This document shows positions 8,232 through 43,991 of a stretch of 64,000 bases of DNA, one piece after another (position 1 is the stretch's first letter; every line of letters begins with the position of its first letter). Made by a program: the position numbers and the translations under genes. The notes below the pieces were generated by a model. It was not told the origin of the DNA. It searched no databases and saw nothing but the letters and a program-made list of their open reading frames with translations. The stretch covers positions 248,001 to 312,000 of the forward strand of contig JAQSDM010000011.1 in the NCBI GenBank assembly GCA_029945945.1. Direction: 5' to 3'. The stretch is from Algoriphagus sp. GTDB lineage: Bacteria > Bacteroidota > Bacteroidia > Cytophagales > Cyclobacteriaceae.

Positions 8232-9218
8232 ATGAATAAAAAAATAGCCCTTGTAACAGGCGGATTCACTGGTGAATCCGTGATTTCTCTGAAGAGTGCC
8301 GCAGTCGTGGAGCGTACCATCGATCGCGAGCGGTACGATGTCTACAAAATCCTCATTTACCCAAATGATTGGCATTATATGAGTGCTTCCGGTGAAAAAA
8401 TTCCGGTGGATCTGAATGATTTCAGCATCAGTCTGGGCGATGAAAAAATCAAATTTGACGGAGTTTTCAATATTCTGCATGGTTCACCCGGTGAGGATGG
8501 AAAGCTTGCAGGCTATTTTGATATGCTGGGAATTCCGTACACAACCTGCGATCAGCTGACTTCCGCTATCACGATGAATAAAGGCTACACCAAAGCAATT
8601 GTGCAGGATATTCCTGAATTGAACGTGGCAAAATCCCTTCAACTTTTTGAAAACACGGTTGAAAACCTGCAAAAAATCGAGTCTGAATTAGTTCTTCCGC
8701 TTTTTATCAAACCGAATAACGGCGGAAGTTCCATCGGAATGACGAAAGTGAAAACATGGGCAGATCTTCCGAAAGCGGTGGACAAAGCTTTCGCAGAAGA
8801 TAAGCAAGTGCTCGTGGAAGAGTTTGTGTCGGGAAGGGAGTTTTCGATCGGCGTTTACAAAGGAAAAGGCGAGATCACCGTACTTCCTGCCACTGAGATT
8901 GTAAGCAGTAAAGAGTTTTTTGACTACGAAGCAAAGTACACTCCCGGCGTGGCGGAGGAAATCACCCCGGGAAGAATGACCGAAGAAGAAAAGTCGCGAG
9001 TCGATCGAATCGTCTATAAAGTCTATGAAAAACTGAACTGCAAAGGAGCTGTGCGAGTGGACTACTTCCTACAACACGAAACTGGAAAATTCTTCTTTAT
9101 CGAAATAAACACTGTTCCCGGACAAACAGAAACCAGCTTGATTTCCCAACAAGTAAAAGTGGCAGGAAAAGATGTGAAAGAGTTTTACTCAGAATTGATT
9201 GAAGAGATGTTTTCTTAA
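8232..9218 (+). CDS. ddl: D-alanine--D-alanine ligase
   Basis: ATP-grasp enzyme joining two D-Ala for peptidoglycan precursors, in the cytoplasm. At 328 residues it has the family length. It begins MNKKIALVTGGFTGESVISLKSA (the GGxSxE-like first motif), has LHGSPGEDGKLAGYFDMLGIPYT near residue 80, FIKPNNGGSSIGMTKV near 155, the loop EEFVSGREFSIGV near 195, and ends with FIEINTVPGQTETSLIS, which binds metal and substrate. The start follows no clear SD. A 70-bp heptad palindrome begins on its stop codon, followed by a bidirectional terminator. Confidence 0.95.
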   Translation: MNKKIALVTGGFTGESVISLKSAAVVERTIDRERYDVYKILIYPNDWHYMSASGEKIPVDLNDFSISLGDEKIKFDGVFNILHGSPGEDGKLAGYFDMLGIPYTTCDQLTSAITMNKGYTKAIVQDIPELNVAKSLQLFENTVENLQKIESELVLPLFIKPNNGGSSIGMTKVKTWADLPKAVDKAFAEDKQVLVEEFVSGREFSIGVYKGKGEITVLPATEIVSSKEFFDYEAKYTPGVAEEITPGRMTEEEKSRVDRIVYKVYEKLNCKGAVRVDYFLQHETGKFFFIEINTVPGQTETSLISQQVKVAGKDVKEFYSELIEEMFS

Positions 9219-9286
9219 GAACCTAGAAAACAGAACCAAGAATCAAGATTTTCCTGTCTCTTGCCTCTTGCTTCTTGCTTCTTGTC
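9217..9286. repeat. 70-bp palindromic heptad array (CAAGAnn family)
   Basis: Ten exact 7-bp units beginning on the last two bases of the ddl stop. The first five resemble AAGAACC/AAGAATC; the last five are TCTTGCC/TCTTGCT-type, the reverse complement of the same CAAGAnn core. It leads directly into the ddl/metK terminator. Confidence 0.75.
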
Positions 9287-9291
9287 TCATA

Positions 9292-9316
9292 AAAAAAGCC
9301 CCTTTCGGGGCTTTTT
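9292..9316. terminator. Bidirectional terminator between ddl and metK
   Basis: AAAAAAGCCCC, a 3-base loop, then GGGGCTTTTT: a symmetrical stem with T-rich flanks on both strands, shared by the two convergent genes. Confidence 0.93.
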
Positions 9317-9318
9317 GC

Positions 9319-10572
9319 TTATAACTCAAATACTGTTTTGATTCGGTCTACAAAGTCCAGCTTTTCCCAGGTGAAGAGCTCAACTTCTTTGGTCACAGGT
9401 GATCTGTAAGGAGAATAGAAAGTCTTGGTTACCAATTCGTTCTTTCTTCCCATGTGACCATAAGCTGCTGTTTCCTCATAGATTGGATTTCTCAGCTTCA
9501 ATCGCTGCTCGATCGCATAAGGACGCATATCGAATAGTTCTTCAATCTTTTTGGCTATTTCTCCATCGTGCATGTCCACGTTGGAAGTACCATAAGTATT
9601 TACATAGATTCCCATTGGCTTGGCAACCCCGATTGCATAGGAGACCTGAACCAGCATTTCGTCAGCAACACCCGCAGCCACCATATTTTTGGCAATATGG
9701 CGAGTTGCGTAAGCTGCAGAGCGGTCAACTTTCGAAGGATCTTTTCCGGAGAAAGCTCCTCCACCGTGAGCACCTTTTCCACCGTACGTATCCACGATGA
9801 TTTTTCTTCCGGTCAAACCTGTATCACCGTGAGGACCACCGATGACGAACTTACCTGTTGGGTTGATGTGATAAACGATTTCGTCCGTGAATAACTTCTG
9901 AAGCTCAGGCTTCAATTGAGCTTTCACTCTTGGAATTAGAATAGTAATGATGTCAGATTTGATCTTTGCAAGCATCACTTCCTCCTGATCAAAATCGTCA
10001 TGCTGGGTAGAAACCACAATTGCGTCGATTCGCTGTGGTACATTCTCATCACTATATTCGATTGTCACCTGAGATTTAGAATCCGGTCTCAGGTAGGTAA
10101 TGTCTTTATTTTCTCTTCTCAAAGCTGCCAATTCCTTCAGGATCATATGTGACAGATCCAATGCAAGCGGCATGTAGTTTTCAGTTTCGTTTGTGGCATA
10201 GCCAAACATCATTCCCTGATCTCCGGCGCCTTGTTCCTCGGGATTCTTGCGCTCCACACCTTGATTGATGTCAGCAGATTGCTCATGAATCGCAGAAAGA
10301 ATCCCGCAGGAATTACCCTCAAACATGTATTCACTCTTGGTGTATCCGATTCTGTTGATTACGTCACGGGCGATTTTCTGAACATCTAAATAAGTGTCAG
10401 ACTTCACCTCACCGGCAAGAAATACCTGCCCGGTGGTTACAAGAGTTTCACAAGCTACTTTGGAATTCGGATCAAATGCCAAAAAGTTATCGATCAGAGC
10501 GTCGGAAATTTGGTCAGCGATTTTATCCGGATGACCTTCAGAAACCGACTCTGAAGTAAATAAATATGCCAT
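9319..10572 (-). CDS. metK: S-adenosylmethionine synthetase
   Basis: Makes SAM from methionine and ATP. The 417 residues match the family (N-terminal [20 protein letters not shown] with the ATP and metal site, [12 protein letters not shown] in the middle, [18 protein letters not shown] for phosphate binding, and a C-terminal domain). It acts in the cytoplasm as a tetramer. A -7 box (TATTTTTG) lies about 37 nt upstream. I looked for a SAM riboswitch in the short leader and saw none. Its product is needed by the methyltransferase cobA about 3 kb away, though the two are not co-transcribed. Confidence 0.97.
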
Positions 10573-13110: not shown

Positions 13111-13260
13111 CAAGATGTTAGAGACAAGAATCAAGATGTAAGTTGGAAATTTATAAGGTAGTAAAGTTAGCTCCAATCCAACAGCTGCTGAAACTGCAAG
13201 CCGCTTCCTGGCTTCTGCTACTGCCAACTGACACTGCAAACTGCTTACTGCCTACTGATC
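13111..13260. repeat. Compound heptad arrays between the Met8-type gene and cobA
   Basis: Three arrays follow each other. From 13111, five CAAGAnn-type units (CAAGATG, CAAGAAT). From 13142, five units ending GTAAAGTT and GCTCC, a tail also found at 16198-16211. From 13191, about ten CTG-phased units (ACTGCTT, ACTGCCT) with two 6-bp steps. The last array runs over the final codons and stop of cobA. Confidence 0.65.
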
Positions 13261-14018
13261 AATACCGCTTCCCTGAAAACCTCCGCCAACTTCGTACTTT
13301 CCCTCACCACTTCCCCCACAATAATTATCGCGGGAGCTTCGGTTTGAGCGTCTTTTGCTTTTTGCTCAATATCTGAAATATAACCTGCCACGATCTTTTC
13401 CTCGCGTGTTGTACCACTTTGGATGATGGCTATCGGCAGATCATTTTTTCCAAACTTCCGATATACTTGTACGATTTCTCCCAGCTTTTTGGTTCCCATC
13501 AAGACGACCACCGTCGCGGTTGATTGCGCAGCCAAAGCCAGATCCTTCGAAAGTTCTCCGGCAGACGTCGTACCTGTCACCACCCAAAAACTCTCAGAAA
13601 TCCCTCTTTTGGTCACAGGAATTCCAGCCGAAGCCGGAACTGCAATCGCCGAAGTAATTCCTGGAACCAATTCAGTCGGGATTCCGAAAGCCTCGATGTA
13701 TTCGATTTCCTCAGCACCCCGACCAAATACAAACGGATCTCCGCCTTTCAGTCGGACCACATGTCCATGCTTTTTGGCAAGGCTGACGCAAAGTTGATTT
13801 GTGTCTTCCTGGGGCTGAGAATGCTTCCCAACTCGCTTTCCGACAAATATTTTCAAGGCCGTTTCCGGCGCGTGTTTCAGCAAAACCGGATCAATCAAGG
13901 CATCATACAACACCACATCCGCTTTGTTCAAGGCAAAAACTGCCTTTAGCGTGATCAGTTCCGGATCTCCCGGGCCCGCTCCAACCAGCGTGACTTTTGG
14001 GTTCACATTATTTCTCAT
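13245..14018 (-). CDS. cobA: Uroporphyrinogen-III C-methyltransferase
   Basis: SUMT transfers two methyl groups from SAM to uroporphyrinogen III, giving precorrin-2. The family signature VTLVGAGPGDPELITLKA opens the protein, YDALIDPVLL follows, then GKRVGKH, VRLKGGDPFVFGRGAEE (SAM binding) and the PGITSAIAVPASAGIPVTKRG region. 257 residues is the usual single-domain length. The ATG overlaps the sulfite reductase stop by 4 nt, implying translational coupling. Here it serves sirohaem for sulfite reduction; no cobalamin genes are seen nearby. Confidence 0.95.
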   Translation of the reverse strand: MRNNVNPKVTLVGAGPGDPELITLKAVFALNKADVVLYDALIDPVLLKHAPETALKIFVGKRVGKHSQPQEDTNQLCVSLAKKHGHVVRLKGGDPFVFGRGAEEIEYIEAFGIPTELVPGITSAIAVPASAGIPVTKRGISESFWVVTGTTSAGELSKDLALAAQSTATVVVLMGTKKLGEIVQVYRKFGKNDLPIAIIQSGTTREEKIVAGYISDIEQKAKDAQTEAPAIIIVGEVVRESTKLAEVFREAVLISRQ

Positions 14019-16169: not shown

Positions 16170-16316
16170 GTTGAAAATTGAAAAGTTGGAAAGTGGTAAA
16201 GTTTGCTCCACTTTCCTTTTTGGTTGAGATCAACCCTTTCCAAGTTCAATTCCTAAAATTTTTGAATTTTAAACTTCGAAGTTTTCAGCCTTCAGCTTTC
16301 AAACTTCATCCTTCAA
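16170..16316. repeat. Split inverted heptad arrays between sulfite reductase and cysN
   Basis: Six heptads at 16170-16211 (GTTGAAA, ATTGAAA, then a tail like that at 13163-13176) are followed after about 70 bp by five heptads at 16282-16316 (CCTTCAG, CTTTCAA, CCTTCAA), which are roughly the reverse complement. The right arm covers the last codons of cysN. Confidence 0.6.
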
Positions 16317-17568
16317 TAAACCCGACACTCACCGTATCAAAACTCCCCTCATCAATCAAAATGAAGGTTCCGTTTGATTTGTTGGTATCGTACGTATCGA
16401 AATGGATAGGCTTGCTCAGACGGAAATGAACCCGACCGATATCGTTTAGCTTGAGTTGATCGACTTCTTCCGTTCCGGTAAAGTCAGTATGAATCCTGGA
16501 TTCTATCTGATCCACTTTTGCCATCACCCGGTTGATTCCGTGCTGAAGGATGTATTTCCCCCCAACTTTTAATGCTTTGTTATTCACCTGGCAAATGGTC
16601 GCCGTGAGTTGCTTTTCGCTTTTCGGCACTTCCGAACTTTTCACCATCATATCGCCTCTGCTCAGATCCACTTCCGTTTCCAGCGTGATTACGATTGAAC
16701 TTCCCGGAGCGGCAGCTTCGATTTCCTTGTCAAAGAAGTGAATGCTTTTGATTTTCGAAGTATTTAAAGAAGGAAGCACTGTGACCTCATCTCCAACTCT
16801 CAAAATTCCTCCGTACAGTTTGCCTGAGAAACCTCTGAAATCGTGAAATGCTTCAGTCTTGGGACGGATTACATATTGCACCGGGAATCGGGCAACTGAG
16901 CTTTCCTGCAAGTCAGACGGCTCCAGTACCTCGAGATGATCCAATAGCGTATTTCCAACATACCAAGGCATCTCTTCAGAATGCCTCGCGATGTTTTCGC
17001 CTTTCAAAGCAGATACCGGAATGAAGGTGATCTGCTCCTGACGGAAATCACTTTTCTCAACCAAAGCGTCGAAGTCAGCCTTTATTTTCAGATAAATATC
17101 TTCGCTGTACCCCACCAAATCCATCTTGTTGATCGCTACCACCACATGGGAAATGCGGAGGAGATTGGCGATGAAAAAGTGGCGATAGGTCTGCTCAATT
17201 ACACCCTTTCGTGCATCGATCAGGATGATGGCCACCTGAGAAGTGGATGCACCTGTCACCATATTTCGCGTATATTCCACATGTCCCGGAGTATCCGCGA
17301 TGATGAAATTGGTCTTGGCGGTAGAAAAATAAATATGCGCCACATCGATGGTGATGCCTTGTTCACGCTCCGCCACCAAACCATCCGTAGCCAGAGAAAA
17401 ATCCAGGTAATCGTATCCTCGCTGCTTGCTGCTTTTCTCGATTGCTTCGATTTTATCCGTCGTGAGTGACTTGGTATCGTAAAGCAATCGACCGATCAGC
17501 GTGCTTTTTCCGTCATCGACAGAGCCGGCAGTTGCGATTTGGATGAGTTTTCTGTTTTGTATGTCCAT
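16306..17568 (-). CDS. cysN: Sulfate adenylyltransferase subunit 1 (GTPase)
   Basis: Regulatory GTPase of ATP sulfurylase, which makes APS from sulfate and ATP. The EF-Tu-like G domain shows GSVDDGKSTLIGR, DTPGHVEYTRNM and NKMDLV; beta-barrel domains follow. The track start adds 33 residues, but those codons are the heptad array at 17583-17666, so the ATG at 17568 (MDIQNRKLIQIATAG) is chosen, giving 420 residues. No APS kinase domain is fused, which agrees with the APS-type reductase encoded by cysH. It is co-transcribed with cysD, its catalytic partner. Confidence 0.94.
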   Translation of the reverse strand: MDIQNRKLIQIATAGSVDDGKSTLIGRLLYDTKSLTTDKIEAIEKSSKQRGYDYLDFSLATDGLVAEREQGITIDVAHIYFSTAKTNFIIADTPGHVEYTRNMVTGASTSQVAIILIDARKGVIEQTYRHFFIANLLRISHVVVAINKMDLVGYSEDIYLKIKADFDALVEKSDFRQEQITFIPVSALKGENIARHSEEMPWYVGNTLLDHLEVLEPSDLQESSVARFPVQYVIRPKTEAFHDFRGFSGKLYGGILRVGDEVTVLPSLNTSKIKSIHFFDKEIEAAAPGSSIVITLETEVDLSRGDMMVKSSEVPKSEKQLTATICQVNNKALKVGGKYILQHGINRVMAKVDQIESRIHTDFTGTEEVDQLKLNDIGRVHFRLSKPIHFDTYDTNKSNGTFILIDEGSFDTVSVGFIEG

Positions 17569-18563: not shown

Positions 18564-18605
18564 GTGCTTTTAAAATTTTTGATTTACTACTTACCTTACT
18601 TCGTT

Positions 18606-18675
18606 ATTCAATATTCAGCATTCGGTGTTCGATACTTAAATTTCGAATTCCGAACATCGAATCTCGAATGATGAA
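18606..18675. repeat. 70-bp palindromic heptad array (ATTCGnn family)
   Basis: Ten exact 7-bp units: left units such as ATTCAGC and ATTCGGT, right units such as TTCCGAA and TCTCGAA, approximately the reverse complement. It occupies the gap between cysH and cysD. Confidence 0.72.
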
Positions 18676-18683
18676 GTATAGTG

Positions 18684-18718
18684 TCTTGCTTCCTGTCTCT
18701 TGCTTCTTGCATCTCATT
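18684..18718. repeat. Five-heptad half array at the cysH stop
   Basis: Units TCTTGCT, TCCTGTC, TCTTGCT, TCTTGCA, TCTCATT, the same CAAGAnn family (reverse complement) as the right arm at 9252-9286. It overlaps the cysH stop by a few bases and is separated from the 70-bp palindrome by 8 bp. Confidence 0.68.
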
Positions 18719-22311: not shown

Positions 22312-22381
22312 GATTTATGATTTATGACCTGGGATGTATGATTTTGGTCAAATCATAGGTCATACATCTTAAATCATAAAT
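22312..22381. repeat. 70-bp palindromic heptad array (GATTTAT family)
   Basis: Ten exact 7-bp units: left half GATTTAT, GATTTAT, GACCTGG, GATGTAT, GATTTTG; right half includes CATACAT and CATAAAT, the reverse complement type. It lies between the divergent htpG and ccmB genes, about 25 bp before the ccmB -7 box. Confidence 0.78.
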
Positions 22382-23083: not shown

Positions 23084-23118
23084 TTGGAATTCAAGATTTC
23101 AGATTTACGATTTCGGAT
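23084..23118. repeat. Five-heptad array after ccmB
   Basis: TTGGAAT, TCAAGAT, TTCAGAT, TTACGAT, TTCGGAT: 35 bp in strict 7-bp phase starting one base after the ccmB stop. The core TTnnGAT is like half of the longer palindromes. Confidence 0.7.
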
Positions 23119-23230
23119 TTTTCTTGCTCCGGATGAGGACAATTCATTTCCATTTTCAATCTGTTGACACAGCATTCCTGATTACACTGCCTTTTATCAG
23201 AAAAACCACCGGAATCAGGAACTTATGACT

Positions 23231-43945: not shown

Positions 43946-43991
43946 AAATTCAATAATGTTGCATTTAGAAATTCAATAATGTTGCATTTAG
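43946..43991 (-). promoter_or_regulatory. Perfect 23-bp tandem duplication, candidate operator
   Basis: Two identical copies of 23 bp (43946-43968 and 43969-43991), directly upstream of the ZIP -7 box. Each contains TGCAACATTATTGAA, a 7-1-7 imperfect dyad (5 of 7 pairs) of the kind bound by Fur-family regulators. The spacing of 23 bp is about two helical turns, so two dimers could bind on one face. The right copy ends 4 bp before the apbE stop. Confidence 0.55.

Follow-up and report, generated by a model that had tools for sequence, protein, structure and literature searches.

We interpret the heptad array directly behind the D-alanine-D-alanine ligase gene (ddl) as one member of a genome-wide population of fast-changing, degenerate heptanucleotide arrays that lie at gene 3' ends in fixed orientation to upstream transcription, and whose units would be added and replaced by direction-sensitive copying. 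We put the probability of this reading at roughly 0.4. The period of 7, the location, the orientation, the diversity of families, the rapid turnover and a vocabulary held in common without a common order are directly visible in the sequences compared here.

The window is the whole 64,000-nucleotide stretch of DNA analysed, taken from a 4.84-Mb assembly of 14 contigs. The ddl locus comprises the following features.

8232-9218, plus strand: ddl, D-alanine-D-alanine ligase (ORF list; Pfam Dala_Dala_lig_C 5.9e-52, Dala_Dala_lig_N 1.7e-19).
9217-9251, plus strand: left arm of the array, five degenerate heptads in sense orientation for ddl (sequence; lag-7 score; inverted-heptad score z 6.9).
9252-9286, minus strand: right arm, five heptads whose reverse complement is of CAAGA type (sequence; TRF 9258-9288, period 7; z 5.6).
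9292-9316, unstranded: intrinsic terminator-like hairpin AAAAAAGCCCCTTTCGGGGCTTTTT (sequence; 9287-9320 folds at -15.4 kcal/mol).
9319-10572, minus strand: metK, S-adenosylmethionine synthetase, the convergent neighbour (ORF list; Pfam S-AdoMet_synt domains).

As a preliminary description of this DNA had stated, positions 9217-9286 hold ten heptads: the first five are of AAGA type and the next five, inverted, of TCTTG type, and the run starts inside the ddl stop; the TAA lies at 9216-9218 and is overlapped by the first heptad. The units are AAGAACC, TAGAAAA, CAGAACC, AAGAATC and AAGATTT, then TCCTGTC, TCTTGCC, TCTTGCT, TCTTGCT and TCTTGTC. The units are degenerate: AAGAnnC fits only some of the first five, and TCCTGTC deviates from TCTTGCn. 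The array is far above chance level: it has 27 of 35 lag-7 matches, where Markov versions of the window reach 19-21 at most, and an inverted-heptad score of z 6.9. TRF picks up the right arm only.

Directly 3' of the array is a strong hairpin (AAAAAAGCCCCTTTCGGGGCTTTTT, approximately 9292-9316) with a T run, on which the preliminary description was silent. With the hairpin following immediately, the array is bracketed by stop codon and terminator. From its sequence the hairpin is terminator-like and may be usable in both directions between the convergent ddl and metK genes; our terminator pattern scan did not list it. That the array itself terminates transcription of ddl or metK is highly improbable. 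It does sit between convergent genes and can fold (sense -13.4, z -1.4; antisense -23.7, z -3.3), but its helices are of 4-5 pairs with internal loops, the fold is weak in the ddl sense, and the G+C-rich stem and immediate T run of an intrinsic terminator are found in the separate hairpin and not in the array. A search of Rfam 15 gave no family above the gathering threshold (top match 32.1 bits, cut-off 54).

To describe the wider population, array statistics were drawn from stretches of genome, some of which (L051-L070) had been selected for heptad hits, and genes were taken as the longest ORFs, a crude substitute for annotation. The unbiased sample consists of C5:1-800000 plus the window (864 kb), scanned with a detector whose floor is 4 units; a strict detector based on the lag score lacked sensitivity. 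Intergenic arrays in this sample number 56 at period 7, compared with 1 at period 6, 6 at period 8 and 0 at period 10. Intergenic clusters at threshold 18 number 35 at lag 7 and 2-9 at lags 6 and 8-13. Simple extrapolation from the 864 kb gives an estimated few hundred arrays per genome. In a larger set, which includes stretches picked for heptad hits, recurrences of a 5-mer at a distance of exactly 7 bases number 2668, where 567 are expected (746 at lag 6, 1262 at lag 8). Collecting heptads across the sampled stretches yields many families, with 318 canonical heptads among near-perfect adjacent pairs; GATTT, CAAGA, CTGAA, CGAAT, CAGTA, GGATG, TAGTC and AAGTAGT are prominent types.

The preliminary description had seen in the ddl array, and in a second array at 22312 with a different heptad, one fixed design of 70 bp and 5+5 units. 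The heptads do differ, the 22312 array being of GATTT type and a separate family. The fixed design is rejected because array lengths are continuous. Single-direction arrays run from 4 to 13 units (18 of 4 units, 21 of 5, 9 of 6, 3 of 7 and 5 of 8-13) and fall off smoothly, with no peak at 5 or 10, the very result that had been named as contradicting the design; the mode at 4-5 lies at the detector floor. Once a few long direct arrays are set aside, the palindromic ones show arms of 3-7 units, gaps of 0-12 and spans of 51-85 bp. The 5+5 count behind ddl is a single value within this continuous range.

Palindromic arrangement is also specific to period 7: approximately 1.65 Mb contain 30 palindromic arrays with z of at least 6 at this period, against 0-2 at periods 6, 8, 9 and 10. 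The majority of arrays are one-directional. Other arrays in the window, some of them compared with the relative G055, are as follows.

22312-22381, unstranded: the companion palindromic array, of the GATTT family; the genes on either side of it, htpG-like (minus) and ccmB-like (plus), are divergent (inverted-heptad z 10.2; fold z -4.7; Pfam HSP90, CcmB).
18605-18670, unstranded: palindromic array, ATTCG/CGAAT family, with a one-directional TCTTG array next to it at 18684-18718 (z 10.3).
16261-16317, unstranded: palindromic array, TTGAA/TTCAA family, missing from the G055 ortholog (z 7.4; G055 comparison).
23086-23120, plus strand: one-directional GATTT array immediately behind the ccmB stop, with variable bases changed in G055 (array scan; G055 comparison).
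13230-13257, unstranded: one-directional array ...ACTG, which reads CAGTA on the coding (minus) strand of the gene 13245-14018, at the stop of that gene (array scan; orientation analysis).

The two arms of a palindromic array have a common heptad vocabulary, but the order of units is not common and the arms are not exact copies. Mirrored units are no closer than other units (likeness 0.610, against 0.609 for non-mirrored units; permutation test of unit order, z 1.3), and exact mirror copying of one arm is therefore rejected. Among 56 adjacent array pairs, 30 are non-direct; 20 of these are inverted neighbours of the same family and 10 belong to different families, whereas approximately 28% of array pairs drawn at random match in one orientation. 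The excess of inverted same-family neighbours, together with the loss of unit order, suggests that some local copying links the arms and that unit turnover then scrambles them.

The position of arrays relative to genes is highly uneven. Convergent gaps hold 22 arrays (10.5 expected) and divergent gaps 5 (20.5 expected), and in tandem gaps 17 of 44 arrays fall within the first tenth behind the upstream stop. For orientation, each array was read along the coding direction of its nearest upstream gene, and its heptad was compared, directly and as reverse complement, with arrays at other stops; no base-composition score was involved. The resulting ratios by distance from the upstream stop are 47:2 (-14 to 6 nt), 27:1 (7-30 nt), 12:4 (31-60 nt), 9:10 (61-120 nt) and 6:18 (121-400 nt). 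In other words, orientation is strict near stops and reversed far away. Ascertainment by ORF ends is rejected as its cause, as arrays 7-30 nt past the stop still stand at 27:1. Of the 11 cases in which a terminator was found, 10 have it on the far side of the array.

We also rejected the idea that the arrays are cassettes of stop codons in all frames. Stops are only mildly enriched (per 28 nt, 2.0 in sense, 1.22 in antisense and 1.56 in background), all frames are covered in just 18 of 87 arrays, and CAAGANN cannot hold a stop and still obeys the orientation rule.

The same rule extends beyond the genus. Five TCTTGNN units were sought by pattern scan in a public genome collection, with matches in Bacteroidota, Cyanobacteria, Planctomycetes, Verrucomicrobia, Proteobacteria and others. 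Of the cases outside the genus that lie at most 20 nt from the 3' end of a gene, 24 have CAAGA in the sense direction and 3 have TCTTG (two-sided binomial p 4.9e-5). Since a strict CAAGANN unit cannot hold a stop codon in sense, this bias is not due to where ORFs end. It is conceivable, but we consider it decidedly unlikely, that several phyla share an undescribed process or machine that writes or reads 7-base units at gene 3' ends in fixed orientation to transcription, accepting any heptad and sometimes adding a second complementary arm from the common vocabulary.

Comparison with relatives reveals how quickly the arrays change. In G055, ddl is 96% identical and the flanks are 87-91% identical. 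At 18684, 23093 and 22299 the G055 arrays are kept with their variable bases changed; at 16253 and at loci on C13 and C5 there are other heptad families or no array; in some G055 orthologs the core is retained and neighbouring bases are altered. Behind ddl, a period-7 array (z of at least 4) occurs in 19 of 64 relatives, in several unrelated families, against 2, 0 and 0 at periods 6, 8 and 9. Each genome has between 0 and 75 exact matches to GATTTNNGATTTNNGATTT, and exact arrays of this single counted family are absent from 17 reduced genomes of 2.2-2.8 Mb (for example, G011, G012 and G048) and from several full-size genomes of the genus. G056 and G058 share few alignable arrays, too few for rates.

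Several further observations concern the site behind ddl. Most of the reduced genomes read carry similar array-free sequence there. In L072 (G055:C289, approximately 2540-2600) the array is interrupted by an ORF resembling the start of an insertion-sequence transposase, which comes between the array and metK. In L076 (G033:C2) a perfect 11-base tandem repeat, AGAAATACAGT, stands where relatives have heptads; the site attracts repeats of another period too.

Variable dinucleotides are common to different loci of one genome, such as CG in G016 and G058 and AC/TT in G038, G049 and G060. The within-genome likeness of variable bases has a permutation p of 0.0003 in the listed subset of nine genomes, and base composition could contribute to it. 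Within arrays, variable columns are more clustered and use more letters than under simulated decay, by a small difference. Together with core retention in some orthologs, this pattern hints at constraint. Plain-decay simulations with detection bias come close, however, and a core-plus-linker constraint was therefore rejected as proof of selection and retained as a hint only.

These observations bear on two explanations besides direction-sensitive copying. The main rival is a selected 3'-UTR RNA element, in which the purine-rich heptads that the transcript carries past the stop, alone or together with a complementary arm, would be bound by a protein with a footprint of approximately 7 nt or would fold into a hairpin with regular mismatches and thereby protect or process the end of the mRNA. 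We consider this possible, although somewhat unlikely. It explains the orientation equally well, and strict location and orientation, outside the genus as well, are what it would lead one to expect; strict orientation and position could equally be caused by selection. One precedent is CspB of B. subtilis, which binds heptamers with one protein per unit (PMC4679880). Folding by RNA structure prediction is also in its favour: palindromic arrays fold better than shuffles on average (mean z -3.0 and -2.6), but the ddl array is weak in the ddl sense (z -1.4). Counter to such an element, heptad sequence is unconserved between sister species, most arrays are one-directional, the pairing of mirrored units is lost, many relatives have no array behind ddl, and the 17 reduced and several full-size genomes of the genus have no exact GATTTNNGATTTNNGATTT array, although this counts a single family.

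The second explanation is that these are ordinary simple-sequence repeats: heptamers that polymerase slippage expands anywhere, that persist only where they do no harm and that point mutations erode. Column heterogeneity close to simulated decay would fit, avoidance of divergent promoter regions is consistent with purifying selection, and the known heptamer excess has been attributed to slippage, according to work cited in PMC4692102. Orientation, inverted same-family neighbours and variable bases common to different loci of one genome are all unpredicted, however, and we regard this explanation as unlikely.

Transposition offers another route to many dispersed palindromic copies. In being short, palindromic, intergenic and numerous, the arrays resemble REP/REPIN elements and MITEs, and RAYT-type Y1 transposase domains are present in the genus. 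Nevertheless, a mobile or REP-like/MITE family spread by a transposase is very improbable. Unlike such elements, the arrays have no conserved sequence, ends or length (spans 51-85 bp; 318 canonical heptads, hundreds of them unrelated). Nor is there a link to the number of Y1 (RAYT) transposases: GATTT-array number and Y1_Tnp count are uncorrelated (Spearman rho 0.15, p 0.28; 52 genomes, one heptad family), and some genomes with arrays gave no Y1_Tnp match, while arrays are absent from reduced genomes that have Y1_Tnp.

Other repeats were noticed alongside the arrays. A dispersed intergenic element of approximately 98 bp, ATGAAATCGAGCATGAC...CACATGAAA, occurs in G000 at C5:269173, C5:261327, C5:279797 and C5:708828, at L057 9249 and at L058 2400; its copies are approximately 85-94% identical and unrelated to the heptads, and it is possibly a MITE. 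On G000 contig C9 (L055 14060-16290 and L053 10442-16386), long AATCTCT/AATCTCC/AATCCCT arrays are mixed with 8-base units and interleaved with the dispersed repeat ACAGATTGCTTTGTCGGCTTTTAGCCTCCTCGCAATGACG. The window also contains an exact tandem duplication of 23 bp, AAATTCAATAATGTTGCATTTAG, at 43946-43991.

Among known systems, the GGGAATC-type arrays of Xanthomonas and Nostoc are close, and are the closest known relatives of the present arrays. These GGGAATC / GGGGA(C/T)T heptameric repeats have the unit GGGANTN and are dispersed and intergenic, on average 28 nt behind the upstream ORF, with 70-75 inverted-pair cases, few copies between divergent ORFs, placement on the coding strand downstream of genes, and length and sequence that vary between related species (Rehm et al. 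2015, PMC4692102). Likewise, the present arrays are intergenic, have a 7-base unit with constant and variable positions far above other periods (56 against 0-6), lie close behind the upstream stop (17/44 in the first tenth), are rare between divergent ORFs (5 against 20.5) and frequently form inverted pairs (30 palindromic at z of at least 6; 20 of 56 adjacent pairs inverted and of the same family). In contrast to the one G-rich, G-quadruplex-capable heptad per genome in those organisms, we find many families, mostly without G-tracts, and an orientation rule that holds across families. The ddl locus is therefore related in kind to those arrays but is a different repeat, and it has no need of G-quadruplexes. 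TAACTGA repeats, which are intergenic heptamer direct repeats in Beggiatoaceae, Cyanobacteria and some Bacteroidetes (MacGregor 2015, PMC4679880), are similar as intergenic heptamers occurring in several phyla. They differ in being one exact heptamer, mostly direct and just upstream of start codons, whereas the present arrays are degenerate, multi-family, often inverted and behind stops. The cyanobacterium Calothrix also has tandem heptanucleotide repeats, with three different heptads in one strain, a likeness known through citation in PMC4692102.

Looking across the analysis, the view that architecture rather than sequence is what persists, put forward in the preliminary description, largely stands: there is one period, many families and one orientation, and heptads are swapped between sister species. 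Fixed length is the part that falls away. Turnover of heptad sequence with architecture kept could reflect either selection or a generating mechanism. On the patterns above we favour fast-turnover, transcription-oriented copying, with a selected RNA role in the 3' UTR as the main rival. Under direction-sensitive copying, we infer, units are gained and swapped within the transcribed 3' UTR when replication slips or switches template; R-loops, or single-stranded DNA that depends on transcription, may assist. A palindrome may arise when copying switches to the complementary strand, or when another array of the same family is captured from the other side. Later unit turnover would scramble the order, such that palindromes keep the common core and lose exact complementarity.

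These findings caution against taking such palindromes for conserved regulatory RNAs. Over-representation of heptamers in bacteria was already known, without explanation. The orientation rule, the location at gene ends and the switch of heptad at one site in sister species make the question 'why seven?' testable, as one of transcription-linked mutation or of 3'-UTR function.
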